Positions 1 through 13,765 of a stretch of 13,765 bases of DNA are shown piece after piece. Below the pieces are notes generated by a model. That model made no database searches. It was not told where the DNA came from and was given only the letters and a program-made list of their open reading frames with translations. Positions within the stretch are counted from its first letter, which is position 1. Each line of letters begins with the position of its first letter. This DNA comes from Nitrospinota bacterium. GTDB taxonomy: Bacteria; Nitrospinota; Nitrospinia; JACRGO01. The stretch covers positions 1 to 13,765 of the forward strand of contig JACRGO010000135.1 of assembly GCA_016212295.1 (NCBI GenBank). Reading direction: 5' to 3'. Position numbers and translations under genes: made by a program.

Positions 1-42
1 GTGCCTTAATCCACTGTTGAGAGGACGCCGCATCTATAAATT

Positions 43-70
43 CCCCTCTTGAGAGGGGTGGCCGAAGGCC
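43..70. repeat. Double-hairpin intergenic repeat
   Basis: Two hairpins lie side by side. CCCCTCT (43-49) pairs with AGAGGGG (52-58) across a 2-nt loop, and GGCC (60-63) pairs with GGCC (67-70) across GAA. It sits immediately beyond the 3' end of the minus-strand kinase remnant, whose stop codon (81-79) lies in the flank of this repeat. From general knowledge, such G/C-rich palindromes are dispersed multi-copy elements in many environmental genomes; copy number cannot be seen here. It could also work as a transcription stop for the minus strand, although no clear T-run follows. Confidence 0.7.
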
Positions 71-78
71 GGGGTGTG

Positions 79-999
79 TTAAGTATTTTCGTGGCTGTGC
101 TTGCAAGCCGGCGGACCGTAATGTTTTTCAAGACAGCTTCTTAATTTAAGTTTCTCCAAGGCGATCAAACCGTTCTCGGCCCATTCGGCCTCCAGCCCCC
201 ACTTTTTCAGCATGGCCAGGAACACCAGCCTGTTAACAGGGTCATCTTCCACTAAAAGAATTTTACATCCCTTTGGAAAGGCCTCTTCCATTGCGGGGGA
301 TTCCATCTTCAGAGTTTTTTCTTCCCCGGCCCTTTTAGCGGACTTTTCAAAAGGCAAGATTACAGTGAATATACTCCCGCCGGCCGGCCGTCTTATGGCC
401 TGCATTTCACCATCCATCATTTCCACCAGTTTCCTGGTAATGGAAAGTCCGAGACCGCTTCCTCCAAACTTACGGGTCGTGGAACTGTCCGCTTGAGTGA
501 AGGGCTGAAACAGGTCTTGCATCCTTTCCAGCGGAATGCCGATCCCTGTGTCCTCCACTTCGAATCTGATCATAGGACAGGCTCCTCGCTCCATGAGCGC
601 TCTAAAGTTTACTTCCCCCTTTTCCGTGAACTTAAGGGCGTTGCTCAGCAGATTCATGAGGATTTGCCGCAAGCGGTACCCGTCACCAAGAACCAGCCTT
701 GGAACATCCGGGGCAATATGAGCGTTCAGTAAAATTCCCTTTTTTTGGCTCATTCCGGAAAAAAGAGAATCCAGGTCATTGATAATCCCATGAAGATCGA
801 AATCCGTCTTATCCAGTTCAAGTTTTCCGGCCTCGATTTTGGAAAAATCCAGGATATCATTGATCAATGTTAAAAGGGCTTCTCCGGATTTATGGATTGT
901 TTCCACTTTTTGCCGTTGCTCCGGGGAAAGGTCCGTTCCCAATAGAAGTTCCGCCATGCCGAGAACGCCGTTCATGGGGGTGCGGATTTCATGGCTCAT
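79..999 (-). pseudogene. Histidine kinase core remnant (HisKA-HATPase-partial REC), truncated at both ends
   Basis: The 306-residue product starts exactly at the H-box (SHEIRTP, His3). It continues through a HisKA dimerisation domain (about 1-65), an N-box ([14 protein letters not shown], about 112-125), G1 (DTGIG, 150-154), an F-box-like stretch (FQPFTQAD) and G2 (GGSGLGL, 179-185). This is a complete ATP-binding domain. A receiver domain begins at about 245 (KILLVEDDP, acidic residues 251-253) but ends near 288, before the phospho-acceptor Asp, in an unrelated tail reading into a hairpin repeat. Hybrid kinases of this family carry a sensor or membrane region before the H-box; none is present. 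The ATG overlaps the stop of the upstream FadL fragment as ATGA, so a headless kinase might still be translated. The residue pair just before the ATG in the same frame is Ala-Asn, as in the usual [12 protein letters not shown] motif, so the kinase coding continues a little into the FadL end. I read it as a remnant; an assembly chimera is an alternative. Confidence 0.75.
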
Positions 1000-1775
1000 G
1001 TTGGCAGCGTTGCCTTCACCGTCCCGCCGCTGTCATAGACGGAGGTCCCCAAGGAGTTCGAGGAAAAAAGAAATGCGTTTCCTTCCAGGTTGGCCACGCT
1101 CCTGGAGCGGTACGTTGCAGCCATGGCCAGGTTTTCAACAGGCTTATAGGCGATAGCGAGATTATAGGCAAAGGTCACGTCATTGCCATCCATGCGCCGG
1201 ACCAGTCTTGTTGGAATCGCGCCGCCTATGAGCGTGACACCGTCGCTTTTCACCTTTCCATCTGAATATATCCCCCGCGCCCCGCCTCCCATGGATAGGC
1301 GGTCATTTATTTTGTAGCCGAAGGACGGATTCAATTCCACGGTTTTAAAGGTGAATTCCTCGGCTGTCAATTTTTGAAGGGCGCCATCCCACCTTTTGGA
1401 AAGGCCGAAGGGAACGGCCATGGACAGTCCGAACCTGAAATCGCCGGCCTGTGGGGAGACATAATGAAAATTCGGGAGATAGAACTGTTCCGGCCTAGAG
1501 CTGGATCCGGCTGGAAATCCAGCCACCTCGCCTGAAAAATCCACTTGCGGCAATTTTATGCAGCTCGCCCCGATTTCCATCCGGGCCGCGTCATCTTCCC
1601 ATACCATGTTGGCCGGATTATAATAGCTGGGGTCCGCCCCGTGGGCGTTTGCCACGTAAGCCGCGGCAAGGGCCATTGAATTGGCGGATTGCTCAGGGAT
1701 TTTATACCCTCCAGCGATTGCGCTGGAGGGTATAAATAACATAAAAAAAAACAGCGCTGCATAGCGACTTTGCAT
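996..1775 (-). pseudogene. FadL/OMPP1 outer-membrane transport protein, C-terminally truncated
   Basis: I chose the ATG at 1775 because an AGAGGG Shine-Dalgarno precedes it by about 6 nt and it gives a clean signal peptide (residues 1-21, ending SSAIA) followed by the family's typical mature start GGYKIPEQSANSMALA and the YYNPANMVW motif (about 51-59). FadL/OMPP1 proteins are outer-membrane beta-barrels with an N-terminal plug that import fatty acids or other hydrophobic compounds. Full members run roughly 400-450 residues. This one stops at 259, just after GTVKATLP, where family members normally continue with further barrel strands. The stop codon is created at the junction with a histidine kinase core. 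Without the last strands it is unlikely to make a closed barrel. An upstream in-frame ATG at 1862 would add 29 residues lacking signal-peptide character and is rejected. Confidence 0.8.
1701..1736 (-). repeat. Perfect hairpin inside the FadL signal-peptide codons
   Basis: Positions 1701-1716 are perfectly complementary to 1721-1736: 16 bp of stem with a 4-nt loop. It covers codons 14-25 of the FadL gene (residues FIPSSAIAGGYK) and the loop falls at the predicted signal-peptidase site. In mRNA the stem would start about 40 nt downstream of the start codon. Whether it regulates translation or is a palindromic insertion adapted to the reading frame cannot be told from one copy. Confidence 0.85.
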
Positions 1776-1800
1776 ATATTTCCCTCTAAAATTCGCGAAA

Positions 1801-1829
1801 AGAGTAGCATAGGCGCGCCTTAAAGTCAA
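1801..1829 (-). promoter_or_regulatory. Candidate sigma-70-type promoter for the FadL gene
   Basis: On the minus strand TTGACT (1829-1824) is followed after 17 bp by TACTCT (1806-1801). The -35 matches consensus at 5 of 6 positions, the -10 at only 3 of 6. A start near 1794 would give a very short leader ending in the Shine-Dalgarno of the FadL fragment. The spacing is good, the -10 is weak. Confidence 0.35.
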
Positions 1830-1841
1830 AGAAATTTTTTC

Positions 1842-1902
1842 GCAAATAGCAAGGCATGGCAAAACGCATACATATGGTATTTTGCCATAATCCCCTATTT
1901 GC
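1842..1902. promoter_or_regulatory. 61-bp imperfect palindrome upstream of FadL
   Basis: Three nested arms are symmetric about position 1872: GCAAATAG (1842-1849) with CTATTTGC (1895-1902), ATGGCAAAA (1856-1864) with TTTTGCCAT (1880-1888), and ATAC (1868-1871) with GTAT (1877-1880). The half-site TTTTGCCATA recurs as a direct copy near 1951-1960. Its place upstream of the putative FadL -35 fits an operator, but a cruciform-forming repeat is equally possible. Confidence 0.5.
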
Positions 1903-2117
1903 CTTTATGTATAAGGGCCCCCCATCTTGCGTGTCTTTTCTGTCTTGCATTTTGCCATAGACACGCTTCCTTCCCTTCAAGCCTTTCCTGGCTTCAAGCC
2001 CTTTAAAATAGCGGTCTTTAGCTTTTTTTTATTCTGGCATGTTTAGTGCTCATATAAAATGTGTAAACGTTCAGGGGATAGCCATATAAAAGCGGGAATA
2101 CTTTATTTTCGTTAGTT
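1903..2117. other. Intergenic stretch without a convincing gene
   Basis: This lies between the divergent FadL fragment and the HD-GYP gene. I see no ORF with a ribosome site or a recognisable protein. A weak promoter-like pair on the plus strand, TGTAAA (2062-2067) and TATAAA (2085-2090) with 17 bp between, could serve the HD-GYP gene; its -35 is poor. A short direct repeat based on TTCAAGCC occurs around 1976-2000. Confidence 0.3.
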
Positions 2118-2224
2118 TTTCACATCCCCCTTAATCCCCCTTTCCAAGGGGGAATTTATTAGGCCGCCCAAAAGGGTTTTCTTTTAACTCCCCCTTGGAA
2201 AGGGGGATTAAGGGGGATGTGAAA
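2118..2224. repeat. Perfect 36-bp inverted repeat, 35-bp spacer
   Basis: Arm 2118-2153 is the exact reverse complement of 2189-2224. Each arm is built of runs of C or G (CCCCCTTAATCCCCC and CCCTTTCCAAGGG cores) and is itself partly palindromic. The class is familiar as a dispersed intergenic repeat in many environmental bacterial genomes (general knowledge). It ends about 85 bp before the HD-GYP start codon and would make a very stable hairpin in any leader transcript running through it. Confidence 0.9.
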
Positions 2225-2308
2225 TTCGGCGCTTAACGCAAAACCCAGGAGTTTTCGTGAACGGTTACAAAAATATAAATAAACAACAACATAAATGGCA
2301 GGCAAACC

Positions 2309-3784
2309 ATGATTATAAAAGTGCCGGTGCGAAAACTCAAGATAGGGGCCTATTTGGAAAAAATAGACCAGAGCTGGCTCTCCACCCCCTTTCTTTCCAA
2401 TCGATTCGAGATCACCTCAGAAAAGCAGATCCAAAAGCTGAAGGACTCCGGCATCACGGAGGTTTATATCGATACCGGAAAGGGGCTGGACGTTTCCATT
2501 GAGGAGCAGAGCCTGGCAACGGAGGAGTCCCCGTGCCGGGAATACCTTGGGCTTTCCACGGACAGGCTATTGGTCAATACCATTCTGCCTTTCGATCTCT
2601 ATATCAAGGACTCAGGGGACTATATCCTCTATTTGCGAAATGGGCTTCCGTTCCATTTGGAAGTCCATTACAAACTGGAGTCCAAGCGCGTAAATACCGT
2701 CTATATCGCCCAGGAGGATAAGGGCCTTCTCGAGAAATATGAAAAGGACCACGAAGAGGATAGAAGGCTGTCCCAGCAGGGACTGGCCCCGGGGTTTGAG
2801 TCCCAGGAAAAAGTCCGGCAATACAACGATTATTTAAATAACTACATGCCGGTGGAGCCCGGTATTTTTATCCCCGGCCTGAAGATTCCAGTGAACCTTT
2901 ATTCGGAAAAGGAAACCGCGGTCCGCTTGGTTTTGAACGCGGAAGCCATTGTTCCGGAGAATGAAGTGTTTTCCAACGGGACTAATGGCTCCGCGCGAAG
3001 GAATTTTCTTATTCATGTTAATGACATGGGAAGGTACAAGAATTTTCTGAAGGAGCTTGCCTCCGGGAAAATCTCCGATAATTCCGAGAAGGCGTCCAAG
3101 GCGCGGGCGGCTGTGATAAAGGAGAACACCAAACTGGCGGCCAAGGATTTATTGGATAATCCGCGCAGCGGGGAAGCGATTAAGGGAGCTAAAGGCGCGG
3201 TTTCCGGAATAATGGAGACGATTTTAGAAAACCCATCGTCCTTTCTTGGCCTGATGAAAATAAATTCCTACGACTACTACACCTATATACACTCCATTAA
3301 CGTATGCACCCTTTCCGTTGGTTTGGGGATTTCCCTTGGCCTGCACAAGAATGAACTTTTTTCCTTGTCCATGGGGGCCTTGATGCATGACGTGGGAAAG
3401 AGCAAGGTGCCCAGCAATCTGATCAATAAACCCGGAAAACTCACGGACGAAGAATTTGTTCTGGTGAAAAAGCATGTGTTGTGGGGAGAGGACCTTTTGA
3501 GGGCTAATGGGGACCTATCGAAGACGACATTAATCCCCTTGCTCCAGCATCATGAAAAACTCAACGGCGCCGGATATCCCAGGAAACTGGAGGGGGACAA
3601 AATTCACCTCTTCGGACGGATTTCCTCCATAGTGGATGTTTATGACGCCCTGACAACGGAACGCTCCTATAAAAAGGCGTTCAAGCCCTTTGACGCAGCG
3701 GCCTTTCTGTCGAAAAACAAGGAGGAGTATGACCAGGAGGTGTTCCGCCGTTTTGTCAAGATGCTGGGAAGCCAAAAGACTTGA
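2309..3784 (+). CDS. DUF3391 / HD-GYP domain cyclic-di-GMP phosphodiesterase
   Basis: The 491-residue protein has an N-terminal DUF3391-type region (about 1-60; IKVPVRKLKIGAYL, SWLSTPF, ITEVYIDTGKG) and a second, poorly recognised region (about 84-250). A C-terminal HD-GYP domain follows (about 300-490), with His328, the HD pair His360-Asp361 (MHDVGK), His389, the His414-His415-Glu416 triad leading into the GYP signature (GAGYP, 420-424), and Asp443 in VDVYDALTTERSY. All expected metal-ligand positions are present, so it should hydrolyse c-di-GMP. There is no signal peptide or membrane segment, so it is cytoplasmic. The start is the ATG giving a canonical DUF3391 N-terminus, with only a weak ribosome site (GGCAGG). 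It is followed by a small MshEN-like gene about 110 bp downstream, a second c-di-GMP-linked domain. Confidence 0.93.
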   Translation: MIIKVPVRKLKIGAYLEKIDQSWLSTPFLSNRFEITSEKQIQKLKDSGITEVYIDTGKGLDVSIEEQSLATEESPCREYLGLSTDRLLVNTILPFDLYIKDSGDYILYLRNGLPFHLEVHYKLESKRVNTVYIAQEDKGLLEKYEKDHEEDRRLSQQGLAPGFESQEKVRQYNDYLNNYMPVEPGIFIPGLKIPVNLYSEKETAVRLVLNAEAIVPENEVFSNGTNGSARRNFLIHVNDMGRYKNFLKELASGKISDNSEKASKARAAVIKENTKLAAKDLLDNPRSGEAIKGAKGAVSGIMETILENPSSFLGLMKINSYDYYTYIHSINVCTLSVGLGISLGLHKNELFSLSMGALMHDVGKSKVPSNLINKPGKLTDEEFVLVKKHVLWGEDLLRANGDLSKTTLIPLLQHHEKLNGAGYPRKLEGDKIHLFGRISSIVDVYDALTTERSYKKAFKPFDAAAFLSKNKEEYDQEVFRRFVKMLGSQKT

Positions 3785-3803
3785 TTCTTCAGGCGATAAA
3801 ACA

Positions 3804-3873
3804 GTCAATAGTCATTCGTCATTGGTAGCCCATGACTATTGATTAATGACAAATGACTATTGACCAATGACTA
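3804..3873. repeat. 7-bp tandem repeats in inverted arrangement
   Basis: The left part reads as heptamers GTCAATA, GTCATTC, GTCATTG (3804-3824). The right part reads ATGACTA, TTGATTA, ATGACAA, ATGACTA, TTGACCA, ATGACTA (3832-3873), which is the complementary type. The two halves can pair into a hairpin between the HD-GYP stop and the next start codon. The right half leaves an open in-frame extension (from 3860) upstream of the small MshEN-like gene. Confidence 0.8.
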
Positions 3874-3892
3874 CTTTAAAGGACAAACGAAC

Positions 3893-4282
3893 ATGATCAA
3901 ACCTTTAGGCAAGGTTTTAGTGGAATGCGGCATTATCACCAACATGGACCTGAGCAGGGCCCTGGTCAGGCAAAGATCCAGCGGCAGCGCCAAGCGGATG
4001 GGCGATATTTTGCTGGAGATGGGACTGGTGACGGGCGAGCAACTGAAAGCGGCGTTGGAAAAACAGCATGACACAACGCCTTCGCCGATGGCCGCGGAAC
4101 CACGGGCCCAATCATTTGCTCCGCGAACTCCCCCGCCGCCCCCGGCATTTTGTCCCCCCCAAACCCGACAGCCGGCGTCCCAGGGCCTGGAGACAAAAGG
4201 ATTGATGGCGCTTCTTCAATTGTTGATTAAAAAAGAGGTCATATCCCTGGAGGAATATTTTCAGGAGGTCCAGGGAAATTAA
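3893..4282 (+). CDS. Small stand-alone MshEN-like (GspE/PilB N-terminal type) protein, putative c-di-GMP receptor
   Basis: I start at the ATG at 3893 (129 residues) because AAAGGA lies about 9 nt upstream and the longer reading from 3860 only translates a repeat. Residues 4-27 (LGKVLVECGIITNMDLSRAL...Q) and 35-58 (RMGDILLEMGLVTGEQLKAA...Q) match the two 24-residue motifs RLGxxLxxxGxxxxxxLxxxLxxQ of MshEN domains, which in the MshE ATPase bind c-di-GMP. The spacer is 7 residues rather than the 5 described for MshE, and motif 1 has Pro instead of Arg. A proline-rich linker (about 79-95) leads to a helical C-terminal segment (LLQLLIKKEVISLEEYF). No Walker ATPase follows, so this is a stand-alone adaptor. 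Its position after an HD-GYP gene supports a c-di-GMP role; binding itself is inference. Confidence 0.75.
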   Translation: MIKPLGKVLVECGIITNMDLSRALVRQRSSGSAKRMGDILLEMGLVTGEQLKAALEKQHDTTPSPMAAEPRAQSFAPRTPPPPPAFCPPQTRQPASQGLETKGLMALLQLLIKKEVISLEEYFQEVQGN

Positions 4283-4360
4283 CTCGGCAGTATATAAATT
4301 TCCATTTTTTTTTTTGCTTATGAATCAATGAGATACTAAATATCGAAGAGGGAAAAACTT

Positions 4361-4466
4361 GAACATCGAACATTGAACGTCCAACGTCCAACATCGAAGT
4401 GTGTTAAATCCTTTCTTCCTTTTTCGACGTTCGACGTTCGATGTTCAATGTTCAATGTTCGATGTT
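4361..4466. repeat. Inverted pair of 7-bp tandem arrays
   Basis: The left array (4361-4398) is built of GAACATC, GAACATT, GAACGTC, CAACGTC, CAACATC. The right array (4424-4466) carries the complementary heptamers GACGTTC, GATGTTC, AATGTTC. The outer 17 bp of the arms are perfectly complementary; inside, the arrays drift while keeping the 7-bp period. No coding potential beyond repeat peptides. A T-run at about 4306-4316 precedes it, without a clear terminator stem. Confidence 0.85.
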
Positions 4467-4473
4467 AATTCTT

Positions 4474-4624
4474 TATAGTCCGCCCGAAGGACGATAAGTT
4501 CTTTTGCGATGGATTTGGTATCGTTCGGCATCGCCCTGATGCACGATAAAACGCCAAAGTCCACTGAGTCAGCGGCGAAGGGCCGCGTGGCCGGCCAATA
4601 GCAAAAGCACGCCCTGCCTTCACC
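4474..4624. ncRNA. Candidate structured RNA or foldable repeat element, strand undetermined
   Basis: Three stems follow one another. First, GTCC (4478-4481) with GGAC (4489-4492), plus a flanking TAT/ATA. Second, a long arm of GGA-TTTGG (4511-4518) with CCAAA-g-TCC (4554-4562), then TATCGT (4519-4524) with ACGATA (4543-4548), then GCATC (4528-4532) with GATGC (4538-4542). Third, GAAGG (4577-4581) with CCTTC (4617-4621) and GCGTG (4585-4589) with CACGC (4608-4612). All pairs are Watson-Crick, so the strand cannot be decided. It lies upstream of the TonB-receptor promoter, so it is not in that leader. The minus strand is also open in two frames here, but with no ribosome site. I do not recognise a known family. 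Confidence 0.4.
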
Positions 4625-4677
4625 CTAAAGACCAACAACGCCTCTCGTTTTTAAGTATTTTTTTATACCTTTTCCTT

Positions 4678-4706
4678 TTGACTTTCCCTGTAAATTCACC
4701 AATAAT
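4678..4706 (+). promoter_or_regulatory. Strong sigma-70-type promoter for the TonB receptor operon
   Basis: TTGACT (4678-4683), a 17-bp spacer, and AATAAT (4701-4706) match consensus at 5/6 and 5/6. It is the best promoter I find in the window. Transcription starting near 4713 would give a leader of about 180 nt that contains the nested inverted repeats at 4725-4859 before the receptor start codon. Confidence 0.6.
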
Positions 4707-4724
4707 GATTCATCAATGAGCTTT

Positions 4725-4859
4725 ACGCCCATTTGGCGAAGTCATTGGCCATTAGTCATTGATAAACAGGAAGACGCCTCAATAAACCAATGACTAATGA
4801 CCGATGACCGATGACTAATGACTAATGACCGATGGCTGCTGGCCTCGCCAAAAGGGCGT
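4725..4859 (+). repeat. Nested inverted repeats in the receptor mRNA leader
   Basis: The outer arms ACGCCCATTTGGCGA (4725-4739) and TCGCCAAAAGGGCGT (4845-4859) pair at 14 of 15 positions. Inside them, 4741-4761 pairs with 4788-4808 at 19 of 21 positions, and the stretch 4788-4836 is a 7-bp tandem array (GACTAAT/GACCGAT types). If the promoter at 4678-4706 is used, the whole leader can fold into one long hairpin ending about 30 nt before the start codon. Function (attenuation, mRNA stability, or simple repeat insertion) is open. Confidence 0.7.
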
Positions 4860-4891
4860 TACTTTAACAAATTTTGAATACTTGGAAAATA

Positions 4892-7000
4892 ATGAGAATC
4901 CTGGCCTGCATATATCTCGCTTTGGCGTTTATAGCTTCAAGCGCAACCCTTGTTTTTTCCCAGGATGATTCGCCCCTGGACGCCTTCATGGAAGCGGAAA
5001 AACTGGAGGCGGAATTGCAGTGGCTTAAGGATGAAACTTATGTCATCACCGCCTCGAAGACGCTGGAGCACATCAAGAAGACCGCTGCCTCCGTCACCGT
5101 GATAACGGACAAGGAGATAAGGAACATGGGGGCAAGGAACCTCATGGACGTCCTGTCCACTGTCCCAGGACTGGGAGTGACCATTCATAACTATGGCTGG
5201 TATGAGCTGGAATCCAGGGGCGTTAAGACCACTGAATCCGATAAAATACTGATAATGCTGAACAGCCATCCGCTGAACGTTATTTATAACGGCGGCGCCT
5301 TGCGGAATTACCATGATTTGATCATTGAAAATATAAGGAAGATAGAGATAATTCGCGGGCCTGGCTCGGCCATTTATGGCGCCAACGCCTTCCTTGCCGT
5401 GGTCAATATCCTCACCAAGGAGGCGGAAGACGTGGACGGAGCGGAGTTCACCTCCGGGGGCGGAAGTTACGGGACCCAGCAGTATAATCTGATGCTGGGA
5501 AAAGAGATAAAAGACCTTGATATCTTCGCCAACTTCAATTTTCTTGACAGCGGCGGCTTTAAGGGATTTGTCCCACGCGACACGCAAACCTCCAATGATG
5601 AAGGCATGGGGACCAACGCCTCCAAGGCCCCTGGTTATACCAATTCCAGATTGTGGAAATACGACCTGGATTTTGGGGCGGGATACCGGGATTTCGCCTT
5701 CAAGGGAAGATATATCAGGGACAAGAGGGGCTTGTTTTCAGGGGTCGCCAATGCGCTGGATGATAAGGGTTATCTCAAACTTGAAAACTACTTTCTGGAA
5801 TTGTCTTATTCCCGCGCCATCGCCGCCAACCTGGACTTCAGCGCGAAGGTTTATAGAGACTACTCCTTCCGCGATTCATTTTACGTGGTTTTTCCCCAGG
5901 GCTACGCTAGCTCCCAGGGCGCCTTTCCAGAGGGATTTCTTGGAGCGCCCACGGAAAAAAATACAAAGCACGGCGCGGAAATCCAGTTGACCTGGGATTG
6001 GAATGACTCCAACAAGGCGATTTTCGGGGCCATGGGAGAATACCAGAGGCAATTCGATGTGAGGCAAAAATTAAACTTTGATCCCCTCACCGGCGCCCCG
6101 TTGGGATCTTTTCAGGATGTTACGCCGTGGGCGAACTGGAATAAAAACGTCTCCCGGAATGTCTGGGCCGTTTATGGGGAAGACATCTTTGATGTCATGG
6201 ACAACCTCAGGCTTACGGCTGGAGCTAGATACGACAGATACAACGATTTCGGCGGGACCTTTAATCCACGCGCCGGCCTTGTCTGGGAGTTTATAAATGG
6301 CTATGATCTCAAGCTCCTCCATGGCCGGGCCTTCCGCGCCCCTTCCTTCATAGATATGTATGACATAAACAATCCGGTGATTTCAGGCAATCCGAACTTA
6401 AAACCGGAAAAAATAAACACCCTCGAGGCCAGCGTCGGGGCCGAATTTACGGAATCGATCAGCAGCCGGATCACTCTTTTCCGTAACAGCATTAGAGATG
6501 TCATAGCGCAATCCGATCCTGACCCTGTTACCGGGCTTCGCGTTTATGAAAATTCACAAAATGTGATTTCCGAAGGCGTGGAGTTGGAAATGAAAGCAAA
6601 GCTTCACGAGGGGTCATACCTTGCCATGAATTACACCTTTCAAAACCCCAGGGAGAAAATCACGGGCCGCTTGGCGGACGTGCCCTCCAATAAGGGGAAT
6701 ATCATGGCCAATTGGGAGATCAACGAAATTTTTCATCTTTACGGCCATCTATTCCTTAAGGGAAGAACGCCGAGGGCGGATGGGGACACAAGGAGCGATG
6801 TGCCGGGATACGGGACCGTGGACGCCACATTGATGGCGCGGAATTTTTTGAAAGGCTGGGAAGGGCTGGAACTGCGTTTCTCCATGTACAACCTCCTGGA
6901 CAAGAAATACGCGGACCCCGCTCCTGCTGGCACCCTGCCGGAGGACTACCCCAGACCCGGAAGGAGCGTCTTGGGGGAAGTGCGATATATGTTTGATTAA
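4892..7000 (+). CDS. TonB-dependent outer-membrane receptor
   Basis: The 702-residue protein starts at the ATG at 4892, preceded by TTGGAAAA and giving a signal peptide MRILACIYLALAFIASSATL with cleavage near residue 23-24. A TTG at 4874 would lengthen it by 6 residues but lacks a ribosome site. A TonB-box-like stretch (ETYVITASK, about 48-56) precedes a plug domain (about 60-176) with the hallmark RGPGSAIYGANAF (about 155-167). A 22-strand-type barrel follows, with FRAPSFIDMYDINNPVISGNPNLKPE-type motifs (written here with variable positions) and ending NLLDKKYADPAPAG...GEVRYMFD. Such receptors import scarce ligands across the outer membrane using TonB/ExbBD energy; the ligand cannot be deduced. 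It opens a gene cluster with two periplasmic binding proteins and two kinases but no ABC permease, so a sensing role or delivery to the binding proteins is plausible. Confidence 0.92.
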   Translation: MRILACIYLALAFIASSATLVFSQDDSPLDAFMEAEKLEAELQWLKDETYVITASKTLEHIKKTAASVTVITDKEIRNMGARNLMDVLSTVPGLGVTIHNYGWYELESRGVKTTESDKILIMLNSHPLNVIYNGGALRNYHDLIIENIRKIEIIRGPGSAIYGANAFLAVVNILTKEAEDVDGAEFTSGGGSYGTQQYNLMLGKEIKDLDIFANFNFLDSGGFKGFVPRDTQTSNDEGMGTNASKAPGYTNSRLWKYDLDFGAGYRDFAFKGRYIRDKRGLFSGVANALDDKGYLKLENYFLELSYSRAIAANLDFSAKVYRDYSFRDSFYVVFPQGYASSQGAFPEGFLGAPTEKNTKHGAEIQLTWDWNDSNKAIFGAMGEYQRQFDVRQKLNFDPLTGAPLGSFQDVTPWANWNKNVSRNVWAVYGEDIFDVMDNLRLTAGARYDRYNDFGGTFNPRAGLVWEFINGYDLKLLHGRAFRAPSFIDMYDINNPVISGNPNLKPEKINTLEASVGAEFTESISSRITLFRNSIRDVIAQSDPDPVTGLRVYENSQNVISEGVELEMKAKLHEGSYLAMNYTFQNPREKITGRLADVPSNKGNIMANWEINEIFHLYGHLFLKGRTPRADGDTRSDVPGYGTVDATLMARNFLKGWEGLELRFSMYNLLDKKYADPAPAGTLPEDYPRPGRSVLGEVRYMFD

Positions 7001-7002
7001 AA

Positions 7003-7125
7003 GAAGAGGCACAAAGGAGCAAAGGGGCAAAGGCACTGAGGGGCAAAGGGCAAAGGGTGAAAGGCGAGAAGCAAGGGGCAGAGGCACTGAGAAGAAAAGG
7101 CACTGAGGCACAAAGGAGCAGAGGG
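7003..7125 (+). repeat. Purine-rich 8-bp degenerate tandem repeats
   Basis: Units such as AAGGAGCA, AAGGGGCA, AAGGCACT, GAGGCACA repeat with a mostly 8-bp period between the receptor stop and the first binding-protein gene. The last part (7095-7125) is complementary to 7211-7241, inside the next coding region, at about 28 of 31 positions. The GAGGG that best serves as Shine-Dalgarno for that gene (7121-7125) lies in this arm. Confidence 0.85.
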
Positions 7126-7132
7126 AAAAGAA

Positions 7133-8062
7133 TTGGAACATAGCGGTCAAGCAATGAAGATAATAATGCATTTCAAGCAAAAAATGCTTATACGCTTTAA
7201 AAAACTTTGCCCCTCTGTGCCTTTGTGCCTCAGAGCCTTTTCCTTTGCCCCTCTGTGCCTCATCCTTGCCTTCTGCCTTTTTGCCTTTGCGCCTCTACTC
7301 CTTCCCCTTCCCGTTAAGGCGCAGCCAAAACATACCATATACTTTTTTAACCCGGAAACCAATATTAATAACTTTGCCTCCCTGAAGATCGAGTTCGACA
7401 CCTACCTTTCCAAGTTGGGGGAATACCAACTACAGCCTTTTAACGACAGGGATATCTTCGAGAAGTCCATTTCCGGGAAAAAGGACGGAATTTTGCTGGT
7501 GTCCAGTTGGCATTACAAGAATCTTAAGGAAAAATTTCCTTTAAAAGCGGTCCTTGTAGGAGTGTTCAACGGCAAATCCACGCAAAAAAGAGTTTTGTCC
7601 GCGAGGAAAGATACCGGGAATCCTGGTTTTTTCAAAGGAATGAATGTAGCTTCCGCCGGGAACAAGGAATACACTATGAATATTCTCAAGGAGATACTAG
7701 GAGGCCAAGGCGAAGATGCCTTGAGCGCCATACAGATTATGTCCGTCCCGAAGGACATCGACGCACTTATGGCCGTTGGCTTCGGGATGGCTACCGCCGC
7801 GCTTACCTCGGAAAACAGTCTGTTGAATCTTGAGAAAATCAATCCAAAGCAGCGCCAGCAATTGAAGCAGCTTGGAAAAAGCGGGGAAATGTTTCTGGCT
7901 ATTGTAGCGGCGCCGGCGGATGCTGAACCGGAAAACAGACCGCTATTGGAGGCGCTGGCGAAGATGGGGGGCGCGCCTGAAGGAGAAAGCAAACTCAGGA
8001 TGCTTGGCCTGGAAGGGTTCAGGGCGCTAAGCGCTTCGGAGACGGAGGCGTTGAAAAAATGA
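7133..8062 (+). CDS. PhnD-like periplasmic substrate-binding protein
   Basis: The 309-residue reading starts at TTG 7133, the only start with a good ribosome site (GAGGG, 7 nt away). ATGs at 7154, 7166 and 7184 are alternatives and would shorten an otherwise very long leader peptide. The hydrophobic segment (about residues 25-60) ends in VKAQ, then a mature domain of about 245 residues begins PKHTIYFFNPETN. Its layout (LKAVLVGVFNGKSTQKRVLSA-type strand, GFFKGMNVASAGN, later DIDALMAVGFGMATAALTS) resembles the PhnD/PF12974 group of periplasmic binding proteins; I am not sure of the exact subfamily. The signal-peptide codons are made of 8-bp-type repeats complementary to those upstream of the gene. 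It overlaps the next gene by 4 bp (ATGA) and has no permease or ATPase partner in the window. Confidence 0.7.
   Translation: MEHSGQAMKIIMHFKQKMLIRFKKLCPSVPLCLRAFSFAPLCLILAFCLFAFAPLLLPLPVKAQPKHTIYFFNPETNINNFASLKIEFDTYLSKLGEYQLQPFNDRDIFEKSISGKKDGILLVSSWHYKNLKEKFPLKAVLVGVFNGKSTQKRVLSARKDTGNPGFFKGMNVASAGNKEYTMNILKEILGGQGEDALSAIQIMSVPKDIDALMAVGFGMATAALTSENSLLNLEKINPKQRQQLKQLGKSGEMFLAIVAAPADAEPENRPLLEALAKMGGAPEGESKLRMLGLEGFRALSASETEALKK
7206..7300 (+). repeat. Pyrimidine-rich 8-bp repeats encoding the signal peptide
   Basis: Degenerate units of the CCTCTGTG/CCTTTGTG/CCTTTTGC kind fill this stretch and are read as Leu/Cys/Pro/Ala/Phe-rich hydrophobic sequence (about residues 25-56 of the first binding protein). 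The same repeat class, in opposite orientation, fills 7003-7125. Confidence 0.8.
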
Positions 8063-9105
8063 AAAAAATACGTGGTGGTTCGACTGGTTTAATTCGTTTA
8101 ATTGGTTTGATTGGTTCAATTCGTTCGACTGGTTCGACTGGTTTGGTTTGTTCTTTGCGCCTCTGTGCCTCTGCGCCTCTGTGCCTTGGTTTGATTGGTT
8201 TAATTGGTTTTTGTTTGTTTTACTGCATGGCTGCGGCCGTGTCCGCTGAAGAAGCTGGAAGCATTCTGATTCTTAATTCAAATATGTCCACCGAAAAATA
8301 TGCCTTGGCGCAGACGGAATTTAAATCCAGGCTGGAAAAAAGAAGCAATTTGGCTGAAGTTAACCTTGGGGAAAAAGAGATTGACGAAGCCGGGATCGAA
8401 AAAATAATCCGGGAAAAAAATCCAGAGTTGATATACTGCATAGGCTCAAAGGCTTATATGATGTCGAACAAACTGGCCAAGGAGAAAAAAACGGTTTTTT
8501 CCTCGGCCATCAATTGGCGGCGGCTCCCAATGGGCAGGAACACCTACGGCGTATCCAATGAGCTCCCTGCGGGAATGGTGTTGATGACCTACCGCTATTT
8601 CTTCCCTGGACTCAAAAAAATCGGCGTGTTATACAATCAGAATTACAATGCTGAATGGCTGAAAAACGCCGAGAAAGACGCGAAGGACGTCGGCATTGAA
8701 ATAATAGCGGAATCCGTGAAAAATTCCAACCGGCTTGATTCCGCCCTGGAAGAACTCCTGCCGAAGGTTGACGTCCTTTGGCTTATATCCGACCCGGTCG
8801 TGTTATCAGGGCCGGAGTCGACTCTCAATATCCTCCAGAAGAGTGACTCCATGAAAAAGCCGGTCTTTGCTTATAACGAAATCTTTTCCAGTTACGGGGC
8901 CCTTTTGGTTATAGACGCGGACATTCCCACCATGGTGGAGCAGGCTTCAATGATGGCGCTTGACCTCTTGTCCAATAAAAAAATCGCCGAACGGGTCCCG
9001 AGCCCCGCCGGTTCCCACATAATCTTGAATATGAAAAAAGTCGAGGAATATGGGATTGAGCTGAACAAGGAGGCCATTGGGTCGGTGAATAAAATCATTA
9101 AGTAA
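8059..9105 (+). CDS. ABC_sub_bind-family (PF04392-like) periplasmic binding protein
   Basis: The 348-residue protein has a GGAGG Shine-Dalgarno 10 nt before its ATG, which overlaps the stop of the previous gene (ATGA), so translation is probably coupled. Residues 1-63 form an unusually long leader with low-complexity hydrophobic triplets (GLI, RLI, GST) and a segment CLFYCMAAAVSA before mature EEAGSILILNSN. The mature part has the two-lobe layout of the family: SILILNS, later NPELIYCIGSKAY, GVSNELPAGMVLMTYRYFFPGLKKIGVLYN, VDVLWLISDP, AYNEIFSSYGALLVIDADIPTMVEQA. Such proteins have a type I periplasmic binding fold like LuxP or TorT and usually belong to ABC importers. None is encoded here, so a ligand-sensing role with the downstream kinase is inferred. 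Confidence 0.82.
   Translation: MKKIRGGSTGLIRLIGLIGSIRSTGSTGLVCSLRLCASAPLCLGLIGLIGFCLFYCMAAAVSAEEAGSILILNSNMSTEKYALAQTEFKSRLEKRSNLAEVNLGEKEIDEAGIEKIIREKNPELIYCIGSKAYMMSNKLAKEKKTVFSSAINWRRLPMGRNTYGVSNELPAGMVLMTYRYFFPGLKKIGVLYNQNYNAEWLKNAEKDAKDVGIEIIAESVKNSNRLDSALEELLPKVDVLWLISDPVVLSGPESTLNILQKSDSMKKPVFAYNEIFSSYGALLVIDADIPTMVEQASMMALDLLSNKKIAERVPSPAGSHIILNMKKVEEYGIELNKEAIGSVNKIIK
8077..8214 (+). repeat. 9-bp and 8-bp tandem repeats forming the signal sequence of SBP2
   Basis: Eight consecutive 9-bp units (8077-8148: GGTTCGACT, GGTTTAATT, CGTTTAATT, GGTTTGATT, GGTTCAATT, CGTTCGACT, GGTTCGACT, GGTTTGGTT) encode residues 7-30 as three-residue repeats. They are followed by four 8-bp units of TCTGTGCC type (8154-8185) and two more 9-bp units (8188-8205). 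Nine is a multiple of three, so copy-number change in this array would keep the frame. Confidence 0.9.
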
Positions 9106-9114
9106 TAAATTTTA

Positions 9115-9560
9115 ACCACGGAAGAACACGGATAAACACGGAAAAGATAAAAATGGGTAAATTACTCTATGAAGATTTAACATATAAAATCATAGGCGCC
9201 GCCAAGGAAGTGTATCGGGAACTGGGGCCGGGTTATCTGGAATCGGTTTATGAAGATGCAATATGTTACGAGTTAGGGATTTTAAAAATTGGCCACCAAA
9301 GACAAGTAGAATTGAATGTTCACTATAAAAATGCTGTTTTTAAAGGTAAGTTTCGTGCGGATTTATTAATAGAAGAGAAGGTTCTTGTGGAAAACAAGGC
9401 TATAAAAAAGATTACCAGCCATGATGAAGCTCAATTAATCAATTATCTTAAAACAACTCGCTTAAGGGTAGGTTTATTGTTTAATTTTGGAGGGGAGACG
9501 TTTGAGTATAAAAGAAGAATATTTTAATAATTCCGTGTTTAATCCGTGGTTTTCCGTGGT
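9115..9560 (+). mobile_element. Inverted-repeat-bounded GxxExxY cassette (candidate non-autonomous element)
   Basis: Arm 9115-9143 and arm 9531-9560 are near-perfect reverse complements (about 27 of 29 aligned positions, one single-base gap). Each is made of roughly 10-bp units of AACACGGA type. Between them lies only the GxxExxY gene, which starts 10 bp inside the left arm and ends 3 bp before the right arm. The unit begins 10 bp after the second binding protein's stop and separates it from the kinase genes, as if inserted into an existing operon. No transposase or target duplication is evident, so mobility is inference. Confidence 0.4.
9153..9527 (+). CDS. GxxExxY family protein (PD-(D/E)XK nuclease-like)
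   Basis: The 124-residue protein has the usual family length and start (YEDLTYKIIGAAKEVYRELGPG), the naming motif GYLESVY (about residues 27-33), and a PD-(D/E)XK-like core in which FRADLLIE is followed by VLVENKAI (Asp, then Glu-x-Lys). Family members more often have ELK where this has ENK. GGAAAAG lies about 8-13 nt before the ATG. By hand counts its coding lines are about 30-33% G+C, visibly lower than the surrounding genes. It is unrelated in function to the binding proteins and kinases on either side and is enclosed by inverted repeats. The biological role of the family is not established; nuclease activity is predicted from fold only. Confidence 0.88.
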   Translation: MGKLLYEDLTYKIIGAAKEVYRELGPGYLESVYEDAICYELGILKIGHQRQVELNVHYKNAVFKGKFRADLLIEEKVLVENKAIKKITSHDEAQLINYLKTTRLRVGLLFNFGGETFEYKRRIF

Positions 9561-9575
9561 AAATTTTTCTTTCAG

Positions 9576-12500
9576 ATGAATATGAAAGAAAAAACCCTTA
9601 AAAGAAGCATCCGCTGGAAACTCCTTTCCACCATGATCGGTTTCATCGTGGTCCTGGTGGCCATTCTGACCTTCATCCAGATCTCGGTCCAAAAAAAGAT
9701 TCTGGAAAAGGAATTGGGACACCGGATCGCCTTGATGAAGGAAAAGCTGGTCGACCGGGGCAAGACCCTCTCCGGCAATTTGCACAATCAGGTGCAAAAC
9801 GGGATCGCCGCCTTCAATCTGTCCCTTGTCAACGATGTTTTAAGAAAATCCGTTGACGAAGACAAGGATCTGCATTACGCCATTTTAATGGACGCCTCAG
9901 GCGCCGCCCACCTTCATACGCTAAGGCCTGAACTGGAGCAGGAAATCCTTTCCGGCAAGGAGGATATTTACGCGCTTAAGCAACAAAAATTCGCAATCAA
10001 TGAATATGAAAGGGACGGCGAATCCTTCATGGAGTTTATCGTGCCGGTCCAAGTGAGCACGCAGCCCTGGGGAACTCTCAGACTAGGTTTTTCAATGGAC
10101 TTGCTTAACGCGGAAATCGTGGAATCGCGTAGTGAAATCGCAAGGCAAACCCGCCGGATGGCGATACGTTCCCTTATCACCTCTTTAATCTTCATTGTCG
10201 TTGGGACCGGAATAGTCCTTTTAATATCCAATAAATTGTCCAGGCCCCTCATGGGCTTGACCAGGTTGGCGAATGAATTGGCGAAAGGAAACTTCGAGGC
10301 CGGAGCTAACGTCGAAGTGGATTCAGGCGATGAGATCGGCGTTTTGGCGGCGGCCTTCGCCGGTATGTCAAAGGACCTGAAAAATTCTTATGAAAAGCTG
10401 GAGGACTACAGCCGCACCCTGGAGCAGAAAGTCGCGGAACGCACGGAGGAGCTGGCCGAGGCGCACGACCAGGCCGTTTCAGCTAATAAAAGCAAATCCG
10501 AGTTTCTTTCCATGATGAGCCATGAAATCCGGACCCCCATGAACGCCATTATCGGCATGACACACCTCGCCCTGCAGACGGAACTCACTCCCAAACAGTG
10601 CGATTACCTGTCCAAGGTCCAATCCTCCGCGCAATCTCTACTAGGGATAATCAACGATATCCTGGACTTTTCCAAGATAGAGGCCGGGAAGCTGGACATA
10701 GAAAACGTGGATTTTAATTTGGAGGACGTGCTGAACAACCTTTCCACAATGGCGAGCCTCAAGGCGGAAGAGAAAGGAATCGAAATTTATTTTGCCGCCT
10801 CAAGCGATGTCCCCTTGTGCCTTGTGGGCGACCCGTTGCGGCTGGGCCAGGTCCTTATCAATCTGGTCAACAACGCAATAAAATTCACGGAATCAGGAGA
10901 GATAATCGTTAAAATCGACCCTGTTTCTGAATCGCCGGAGGTTAAGCAGCAGGGCCATGCCATGCTCCGCTTTTCCGTAAAGGACACCGGCATCGGACTC
11001 ACCCAAGAGCAGATGGGCAAATTGTTCCAATCATTCAGCCAGGCGGACAGGTCCACCACCCGGAAATACGGCGGCACCGGCCTGGGCCTTGCCATTTGCA
11101 AGCGGCTGGTGGAGATGATGGGAGGAGATATCCGCGTGGAAAGCGAACCCGGCAAGGGGAGTTCTTTTATTTTCACCGCGAAATTCGGCCTTCAGGCAAG
11201 CGGGAAGGAAAAAAAATTACAGCCGCCTGTGGATATCAGGGGTTTGAAAATTCTGGTGGTGGACGACAGCAAGACCTCGCAAAAAATATTGCAGTCCTAC
11301 CTTGAATCCTTTTCCTTTAATGTCACCATCGCGGGTTCTGGCAAAGAGGCGCTCCAACTGCTGGAAAACGCCCCAGCGAACAACCCCTATCAACTCGTGC
11401 TCATGGACTGGAAGATGCCGGAAATGGACGGCATCGAAACCGCTAACCTCATTAAAAAAAATAAAAGGATTTCCCTGGCGCCGACCATTGTCATGGTGAC
11501 CGCTTACGGCAGGGAAGAAATAATGCATCAGGCCAGGGACGCGGGTTTGGGCGGCTTTCTCATCAAGCCGGTGAATCCGTCCGTGCTGTTTGAAACTATT
11601 CTTGACGCCTTCGGCAGGACCATTTCCAAAAGGCCCTTTGCCGCCAAGCCGCTTGCGGCGGAAGGCAAGGGCCTGGATAAACTCAAAGGGGCAAGGCTTC
11701 TTCTGGTTGAGGACAATGAAATCAACCAGCAGGTGGCGGCTGAGCTGCTGAAGAAGGCCGGCGTTGCCGTAACCATTGCCGTGAACGGGAAAGAGGCTGT
11801 CCGGAAAGTGGCTGAAAATGATTTTGACGCCGTGCTTATGGACCTGCAAATGCCGGTGATGGACGGCTACGAGGCCGCCAGGACAATACGCAAGGACCCC
11901 CGCTTCCAAGACTTGCCCATAATTGCCATGACCGCCCACGTAATGGCCAGTGAAAAGGAAAAATGCCTGGAGGCCGGAATGAATGACCACACTGGCAAGC
12001 CCGTGGATCCGGAAAAATTATTGGAGACCCTGGCCAAATGGATCAGGCCAGGCGCAAGGCAAGCCCTCGCTTCCCGAGAAAATTGTCAATTGTCAATTGT
12101 CAATTGTCAAGATCAAGGCAAAGCCTCCGCTCCTCTAAAAGAAGAAGGCTCTGAAGGCTTGCCGGAATACTTGCCAGGCATTGACGTCAAAGCCGGCTTA
12201 AAAAGGCTACGCGGCGACAAGACCCTTTTTCTTAACCTTCTCCGGAGTTTTCAGGACCGGCATGCCGCGGCCACTGAAATAAGAAATTTTTTAAACGCCG
12301 GCGATTTTGCCTCCGCTGAACGATTGGCCCATAATATTAAAGGGGTGTCTGGAAATCTTTCGGCCCAGGAATTGTACCCGGCGGCCGGTGAACTGGAGGC
12401 CGCAATAGAACGAAGGCAATGGGAACTTTTTCCGGTATTGTTGGATAAGTTTGAGAAAGCCCTGGGCGTGGCAATGCAATCAATCAAGCTTCTGGAAAAA

Positions 12501-12782
12501 CCACCTTCCTTTGCGGAAACAATCTCTGGCGAACCCCTTGAGCTGAACATCGAAAAGGCAAAACCCATTCTGATTGAGCTATGGGGACGGATCAGGGAAA
12601 ACAGCCTGGACGCGGACAACTGCCTCGGAAGCCTGAAAAAACATCTGCGCGGACAAAGGTTCGTGGAAGAGATGAAAAGGCTGGAGGACTCCCTAAGCGC
12701 CTTTGATTATGCGAGGTCCCAGGCCATCCTCGCTGAAATCGGAAAAACTCTCGATATCTCCTTCGCGGAGGCGGATAAATGA
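9576..12782 (+). CDS. Membrane hybrid sensor histidine kinase (sensor-HAMP-HisKA-HATPase-REC-REC-Hpt)
   Basis: I start at ATG 9576 (1068 residues); the open frame from GTG 9546 only reads the upstream repeat, and ATG 9582 is an alternative. Neither has a strong ribosome site. In order: TM1 (about 16-38), a periplasmic segment of about 160 residues with a Cache/PAS-like strand pattern ([31 protein letters not shown]), TM2 (199-218), HAMP (219-272), a short coiled coil, HisKA with His316 (SHEIRTP), HATPase ([26 protein letters not shown]), REC1 (Asp611 in [10 protein letters not shown]), REC2 (Asp756 in [10 protein letters not shown], Lys808), a linker, Hpt with His919 ([12 protein letters not shown]), and a helical tail. 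All phosphorelay residues are present. It overlaps the next gene by 4 bp. It is probably the membrane reader of ligands held by the upstream binding proteins, as in TorT-TorS or LuxP-LuxQ; that pairing is inferred. Confidence 0.92.
12081..12108 (+). repeat. Four 7-bp tandem repeats inside the kinase coding region
   Basis: AATTGTC occurs four times in a row, read in three successive frames as NCQLSIV then NCQ, in the linker between REC2 and the Hpt domain. Gain or loss of one unit would shift the frame and remove the Hpt domain. Confidence 0.9.
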
Positions 12783-13765
12783 CCAGTGATCGATCCAGGC
12801 AAAGAATATTAATTGTGGATGATATGCCGGAGGACATTAAATTCCTTGGGGAGGCGCTAAGGGCGGACTATGACATTATCATTGCCGTCAGCGCGAAAAA
12901 GGCCCTGGAAATCATAGCGGATAGCCCTCCTGACCTGGTTCTCCTTGATATCATGATGCCGGAAATGAATGGATACGAGATATGCGGGAGGCTCAAGGAA
13001 GACGAGCGGACCAAAAACATCCCGGTGATTTTTAACACCGGGAAGGGCGAGGTGGAGGACGAGATGCGCGGGCTTGAACTCGGGGCGGTTGACTATATCA
13101 CCAAGCCCTTCAGCATCCCCATTGTCAAGGCCCGCGTTAAAACCCACCTCCAACTCAGGGTGTCCGGGATTCAACTGGAAAAGCAGAACCAAACCCTGCG
13201 CGAATTAAACAACATGAAGAACGAATTTATCGGAATGGCGGCCCATGACCTGAGAAACCCTTTGGGGAGCATTTGCGGCCTTGCGGATTTCCTCAATGAG
13301 AGCGAGGCCATTTTGTCAGCCCAGGAGCGGAGAGATTATTTAAGGACAATTGAGTCCACCGGCATGAGAATGCTGGGGATAGTGGACAACCTCCTTGATA
13401 TTTCCGTTATTGAAAGCGGAAACCTGAAGCTTGAAATCGGGAAATGGCCGCTTGAGGAATTGTGCAGGGAGCGAATCCAGATTTTTGGAATTCAAGCCAG
13501 GAAAAAGAAAATCACGCTCCACCCGTCCTTTAATAAGACAGGTGATTTTCCGTTTGATAGAAACCAGATTTCCCAGGCGCTCGACAACCTGTTAAGCAAT
13601 GCCATTAAATTCTCTCCCCTGGGCTCCAATGTTTATATTTCAACGGAAAATGACGGGAACATGGTAAAAGTAAGCGTCAGGGATGAAGGGCCGGGCATAT
13701 CCGAGAATGACAAGGCCAGGCTTTTCGGGAGTTTTCAAAAATTGAGCGCCAAACCCACCGGGGGA
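12779..13765 (+). CDS. REC-HisKA-HATPase response regulator/kinase, 3' end outside the window
   Basis: The frame is open from ATG 12779 (ATGA overlap with the hybrid kinase) through the window end, 329 codons. Residues 8-125 are a receiver with acidic residues at 14-15 (VDD), phospho-acceptor Asp57 (LLDIMMP) and Lys109 (YITKPF). A short helical linker leads to HisKA with His156 (AAHDLRNPL), then the ATP-binding domain with N-box ([15 protein letters not shown], about 266-280) and G1 (DEGPGI, 302-307). The G2 box would follow beyond the end. It has no membrane segment, so it is cytoplasmic. A receiver placed before a kinase lets it take a phosphate from the upstream Hpt domain and adjust its own kinase. 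No DNA-binding output is visible in the part present. Confidence 0.9.

Follow-up and report, generated by a model that had tools for sequence, protein, structure and literature searches.

Degenerate short-unit repeat arrays code for the hydrophobic cores of two adjacent predicted signal peptides in a Nitrospinia genome

The hydrophobic cores of the predicted signal peptides of two consecutive substrate-binding proteins, SBP1 and SBP2, are coded by arrays of degenerate short repeats. Both genes lie in the window, the 13,765 nucleotides analysed here, which form a complete contig of the Nitrospinia draft genome G000 (3.74 Mb metagenome assembly, 237 contigs, 90.5% complete). The operon runs from a TonB receptor through SBP1 (PF12974), SBP2 (PF04392) and a GxxExxY gene to a hybrid histidine kinase. 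We propose that arms of dispersed hairpins were inserted at the 5' ends of SBP1 and SBP2 and now code for most of their signal peptides by passive tolerance and exaptation; for this explanation as a whole we estimate a probability of about 0.75. Genes and signal peptides were called with crude, home-made methods, and the repeat statistics rest on 1.74 Mb (46%) of the genome. An Rfam search of the window gave no known RNA family.

Table 1. Annotated features of the window
Feature	Position	Strand	Basis
Window, complete contig (G000:C91) of Nitrospinia draft genome G000	1-13,765
Intergenic hairpin, inverted 7-bp arrays (GAACATC / TTCGATG)	4361..4466	.	TRF; like kind of element
Intergenic inverted 7-bp arrays (GTCATTG... 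/ ...AATGACT)	4740..4834	.	TRF
5' arm of SBP1 hairpin element, purine-sense 8-bp array, AAAGGCAC/ACAGAGGC family	7005..7130	+	TRF, inverted repeats I1-I6 with 7205-7303, fold
Hairpin loop: SBP1 n-region and start codons ATG 7154, 7166, 7184	7131..7204	+	fold
SBP1, periplasmic phosphonate-type substrate-binding protein (PF12974)	7154..8062	+	Pfam family and orthologues
3' arm, pyrimidine-sense 8-bp array, codes SBP1 signal-peptide hydrophobic core	7205..7303	+	TRF, inverted repeats
SBP2, ABC_sub_bind substrate-binding protein (PF04392)	8059..9105	+	Pfam family and orthologues
First 9-bp array (TGGTTYRAY), GLI/GST frame, extended n-region of SBP2 signal peptide	8076..8148	+	TRF, repeat analysis
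8-bp array (GCCTCTGY) within SBP2 signal peptide	8153..8188	+	TRF, repeat analysis
Second 9-bp array (TTGGTTTRA), GLI frame, SBP2 signal-peptide hydrophobic core	8186..8218	+	TRF
Left array of GxxExxY cassette, CCACGGAA/CACGGATAAA, ~10 bp unit	9104..9154	+	inverted repeat I1, TRF
GxxExxY protein (TIGR04256; PF13366, PD-(D/E)XK_3)	9153..9527	+	profile match; absent from orthologous loci
Right array of GxxExxY cassette, 71% complementary to left array	9521..9571	+	inverted repeat
7-bp array (AATTGTC)4, in frame, receiver-HPt linker of hybrid kinase	12081..12110	+	TRF, shared 12-mers, domain search

Array-coded signal peptides of SBP1 and SBP2

According to the original prediction, both secretion signals are written in degenerate short-period repeats, with 8-bp pyrimidine units in SBP1 and with 9-bp, then 8-bp, then further 9-bp units in SBP2. 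These arrays were located, lie in the claimed frames with matching readings and exceed shuffled sequence. The interval 7206-8214 that had been described as repeats holds as such for 7205-7303 and 8076-8218; the mature SBP1 domain is not repetitive. In SBP1 the lag-8 base match is 57%, while 2000 dinucleotide shuffles reach no more than 55% at any lag from 6 to 11 (p<5e-4), and the array reads in the gene frame as LCPSVPLCLRAFSFAPLCLILAFCLFAFAPLLL. SBP2 carries three abutting arrays from two families. Its first array comprises ~7.6 copies with a lag-9 match of 77% (maximum of 55% in 2000 dinucleotide shuffles), while its 8-bp array, with a lag-8 match of 79%, lies above all 2000 dinucleotide shuffles (maximum of 69%); read in the gene frame, the arrays give GGSTGLIRLIGLIGSIRSTGSTGLV, LRLCASAPLCL and GLIGLIGFCL. 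Lag matches of only 57-79% mean that the near-identical tandem copies typical of phase-variable loci are absent.

Both proteins show the predicted features of a Sec signal peptide, i.e., a charged n-region, a hydrophobic core and a small-residue cleavage motif. The predicted signal of SBP1 (~56 residues) consists of the n-region MKIIMHFKQKMLIRFKK, the core and the cleavage motif VKA; that of SBP2 (~63 residues) starts with MKKIR and ends in the motif VSA. Their maximal 12-residue hydropathies of 3.06 and 2.59, respectively, fall within the orthologue range of 2.17-3.63.

The SBP1 array is one arm of a hairpin of ~300 bp, with a predicted RNA fold of -152 kcal/mol (z -8.7). The inverse array upstream of SBP1 that forms the other arm had been overlooked in the original prediction. 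The start of SBP1 is ambiguous, with three ATGs in the loop and no strong Shine-Dalgarno sequence, and the SBP2 ATG overlaps the SBP1 stop codon. True start codons downstream of the arrays were considered and ruled out, as such starts leave no export signal: in SBP1 the first in-frame start after the array, TTG 7415, already lies in the mature, conserved domain, and in SBP2 translation from 8215 or 8227 would leave MFYCMAAAVSAEE or MAAAVSAEE, both devoid of a core.

Orthologues were found at five loci, in G015 (L003), in G001 (L002 and L035; the nearest genome compared, from the same genus as G000), in a Methylococcaceae MAG (L156) and in a Scalindua MAG (L157). The mature parts share 41-47% identity with these orthologues, and homology begins just downstream of the arrays. 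The orthologue signals are ordinary and shorter (27-49 residues in the cases measured) and contain no seed of the SBP1 or SBP2 repeats. Because the orthologous loci have ordinary signals, in this lineage the arrays appear to have taken the place of such signals or lengthened them. The suggestion that signal peptides tolerate arrays is thus borne out. The original prediction had named ordinary orthologue signals together with starts downstream of the arrays as grounds against it; the former do exist, the latter are excluded. In G001 the gap between the TonB receptor and SBP1 carries another hairpin, made of 7-mers.

Dispersed hairpins and their entry into coding sequence

The sampled part of G000 contains 428 intergenic arrays (17.2 kb) with units of 7-11 bp and multiples thereof, belonging to many mutually unrelated families. 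An inverted partner within 160 bp accompanies 168 of 387 intergenic arrays of at least 25 bp, compared to 10 direct partners and none in shuffled sequence. 12-mers common to intergenic arrays at other loci recur in 62 in-ORF segments, against 0 for control 12-mers from reversed sequence; many of these segments sit upstream of the probable start, and 28 were placed inside genes with confident calls. With MITEs and Rickettsia palindromic elements (RPE) the arrays thus share the dispersed, many-copy inverted-repeat hairpin and the in-frame presence in protein genes. The window itself contains at 2101-2222 the inverted pair CACATCCCCCTTAATCCCCCTTTCCAAGGGGG / CCCCCTTGGAAAGGGGGATTAAGGGGGATGTG, from a 10-bp unit family that recurs in the genome.

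Within proteins, array-coded peptides include NSSLVTRHSSL (receiver domain) and SIDNRQLTIDN (CheW-like protein), and a further array lies in the linker of the kinase of this operon. The linkers of a CheA-like protein (L020 6594-7256) contain 7-bp arrays of four or more different kinds. In a CheB-like ORF (L122 near 4691, minus strand, beginning MPKKPAKARTNKTNRTN) 9-bp arrays read in frame code for the first ~45 residues, which parallels the array-coded signal peptides but is polar. The proposed genome search for further exported proteins with array-coded N-termini yielded two in the sampled 46%: a TonB receptor (L116) and a multihaem cytochrome (L127), the n-region of which is written in 7-mers that also supply its start codons.

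How an array can serve as a signal follows from coding arithmetic. A unit of 7 or 8 bp runs through all frames and yields an identical cyclic peptide in all three. Read in the pyrimidine sense, the octamer encodes ASVPLCLC or AFVPLCLC, with a mean hydropathy of 2.0-2.5, and the complementary strand encodes TEAQRHRG (-2.3). For the 9-mer, GLI (2.63) is the hydrophobic open frame, and both the GLI and the pyrimidine-octamer readings are in use in SBP1 and SBP2. The reading used is the most hydrophobic open one in each block, except for the SBP2 8-mer, the three forward frames of which are about equal. For a Sec signal it is enough to have positive charge at the start, a hydrophobic segment and small residues at the cleavage site. 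The putative element would be a short loop between two arrays that repeat a degenerate unit of 7-10 bp in opposite orientations, and would lie mostly in intergenic positions. In this lineage one such element would have landed over the 5' end of SBP1, and the 5' end of SBP2 would have received a compound 9-8-9-bp array; the frame stayed open in both genes, so that arrays now supply most of each signal peptide. We infer that these signals would still function, because Sec needs few features and the 8-bp unit forms the same ring in every frame, hydrophobic in the pyrimidine orientation.

The genomic distribution fits tolerance better than co-option, with arrays entering mostly at signal peptides and C-termini. 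Among the confident matches, arrays occur in 4 signal-peptide genes (29.8 arrays per 100,000 codons), 3 other N-termini (8.6), 13 C-terminal tails (32.0) and 8 gene bodies (2.3). The original prediction had suggested that repeats were co-opted as export signals. Selective retention for better or tuned export or expression, e.g., through placement of the start codon in a hairpin loop, would be in line with the very stable predicted hairpin around the SBP1 start, with the use of the most hydrophobic reading and with the excess of arrays in signal peptides over gene bodies (p=7e-4). However, once SBP1 and SBP2 are set aside as the starting point of the analysis, this excess weakens to p=0.04. C-terminal tails are as rich in arrays, and the difference between signal peptides and other N-termini lacks significance (p=0.10, or p=0.62 when SBP1 and SBP2 are again excluded). 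In addition, array hydrophobicity does not significantly exceed that of arrays simulated from the family profile (P=0.07 for SBP1 and 0.56 for SBP2, with a weak profile trained on five arrays and the upstream arm), and inspection of the 120 bp that precede the longest ORF of the cytochrome shows no inverse arm. Since simulated arrays show no significant extra hydrophobicity, we favor passive tolerance and regard specific co-option as quite unlikely.

Local expansion of the signal sequences, which had also been suggested, fares little better. Growth in place of simple tandem repeats by slippage, as in contingency loci, would account for the tandem structure and the degenerate copies, and heptamers are given as the commonest 5-11 bp class among bacterial simple repeats in a statement cited in PMC4679880. 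Yet the same families are dispersed genome-wide and mostly in inverted pairs, arrays of two families abut in SBP2, each 8-bp copy gained or lost in coding sequence would shift the frame, and the orthologue signals hold no seed from which repeats could have grown; slippage as the only process is therefore improbable. An artefact is conceivable in a metagenome assembly of so many contigs, and the home-made gene caller did set the SBP2 start at 8227. The order TonB receptor-SBP1 and SBP1-SBP2-kinase across the arrays is nonetheless found again in other genomes, the frames remain open, the arrays are degenerate and non-identical, and downstream starts provide no signal peptide, which makes misassembly or wrong gene starts a highly improbable explanation. 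Insertion of dispersed hairpin arms with passive tolerance is the reading that we retain.

Paired arrays around GxxExxY genes

Between SBP2 and the kinase lies a cassette (9104-9571) in which paired arrays enclose a GxxExxY gene. This nuclease-like gene may help such repeats to spread. The slot downstream of SBP2 contains gene-less paired arrays in G001 (L002 1195-1335) and G015 (L003 2440-2610), and neither a GxxExxY gene nor paired arrays in Scalindua. The paired array of G015 holds a second, nested inverted array. In four Nitrospinia genomes, inverted flanks scoring at least 12 surround 13 of 18 GxxExxY loci versus 4 of 200 random small genes (Fisher 7e-14), a threshold that was picked after the Nitrospinia scores were known and a random set drawn entirely from one genome; a threshold-free Mann-Whitney comparison of the flank scores gives 5e-8. 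With the threshold fixed, plasmids of other phyla show inverted flanks at 3 of 9 GxxExxY genes versus 11 of 154 (p=0.03). Similar flanks occur on plasmids of Bacteroides, Bernardetia, Sphingomonas and Gemmatirosa, where the arrays of the latter lie just beyond the measured flank; on the Sphingomonas plasmid the GxxExxY gene separates fabD from fabG.

The arrays flanking GxxExxY (PF13366) genes come from varied short-unit families (window, L175-L195, L201-L203, L209), and one such gene (L121 4169-4573) has its own N-terminus (NHETHEAHE) coded by a 9-bp array. A 10-mer pattern search gave matches in five other genomes; in G000, where the arrays are spaced differently, it gave none. No match to GxxExxY was found in phages, and none was confirmed in viral contigs. 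A literature search, including a wider one and mostly outside subscription journals, found no work linking GxxExxY with repeats.

These data point to a tentative reading in which the paired arrays are the ends of a candidate mobile element whose complete form carries GxxExxY (PD-(D/E)XK_3). The solo hairpins, those of the signal peptides included, would then be non-autonomous relatives, as REPINs are to RAYT genes; taken jointly, we consider both statements possible, with the odds leaning against them. The excess of inverted flanks in Nitrospinia and on plasmids argues for it, as do the gene-less arrays in the slot occupied by the cassette in the window, the presence of the signal-peptide octamer family at GxxExxY flanks in G001 and G015, and the higher frequency of the gene in genomes with arrays (8 of 11 versus 14 of 66, p=0.0014, kinship ignored). 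Against it, several GxxExxY loci lack such flanks, the 7-bp families, which are the most common, are not seen at GxxExxY genes, the main comparison depends on a post hoc threshold and a single-genome control, and the gene could be a mere passenger between arrays. G000 also has two matches to PF01797 (Y1 transposase), one of them on C211, where an octamer site lies 2.3 kb away. The broadest version, in which array-enclosed GxxExxY genes (TIGR04256) represent a widespread, undescribed bacterial mobile element with gene-less hairpins as non-autonomous offspring that reshape proteins at signal peptides, linkers and C-termini, is more doubtful and on balance unlikely.

Relation to known repeat elements

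The arrays of SBP1 and SBP2 offer a concrete route from non-coding repeats to working protein parts. As a unit length not divisible by three yields the same peptide in every frame, an open hydrophobic array stays so anywhere it lands, and signal peptides are a site where such a landing costs little. If the GxxExxY reading is true, array-flanked GxxExxY genes are a candidate source of the many hairpins with short units that occur in environmental bacteria.

One case of a signal peptide derived from a repeat is known: in Yersinia, the RU-2/YPAL element makes up a portion of the YPO1552 signal peptide (Delihas 2007, PMC2759123; PMC2229807). RU-2 is a single 168-bp sequence, whereas the arrays described here consist of 8-9 bp units and affect two adjacent genes for Pfam-family proteins with orthologues. 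RPE of Rickettsia are likewise hairpin repeats that are tolerated in frame in genes of conserved proteins, yet they are 105-146 bp long and related in sequence, in contrast to the many unrelated short-unit families of G000. REPIN/RAYT systems (PMC3116915) resemble the present one in combining scattered, non-autonomous inverted pairs of short palindromic repeats with a gene flanked by the same repeats; the gene of the former codes for a Y1 tyrosine transposase, that of the latter for a GxxExxY PD-(D/E)XK protein, and the pairs here are tandem arrays. In Borgs (PMC9879509), repeats in ORFs are also enriched in exported proteins, but all their in-ORF units are divisible by three, unlike the 7- and 8-bp units that form frame-independent, hydrophobic rings. 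The heptamers of cyanobacteria and Beggiatoaceae (PMC4679880) are similarly abundant, mainly intergenic short-unit direct repeats; their TAACTGA repeats are direct and located 5' of start codons, while the arrays of G000 are mostly inverted pairs and partly coding. The combination of 7- and 8-bp units with two adjacent, predicted exported proteins is what distinguishes the present case.
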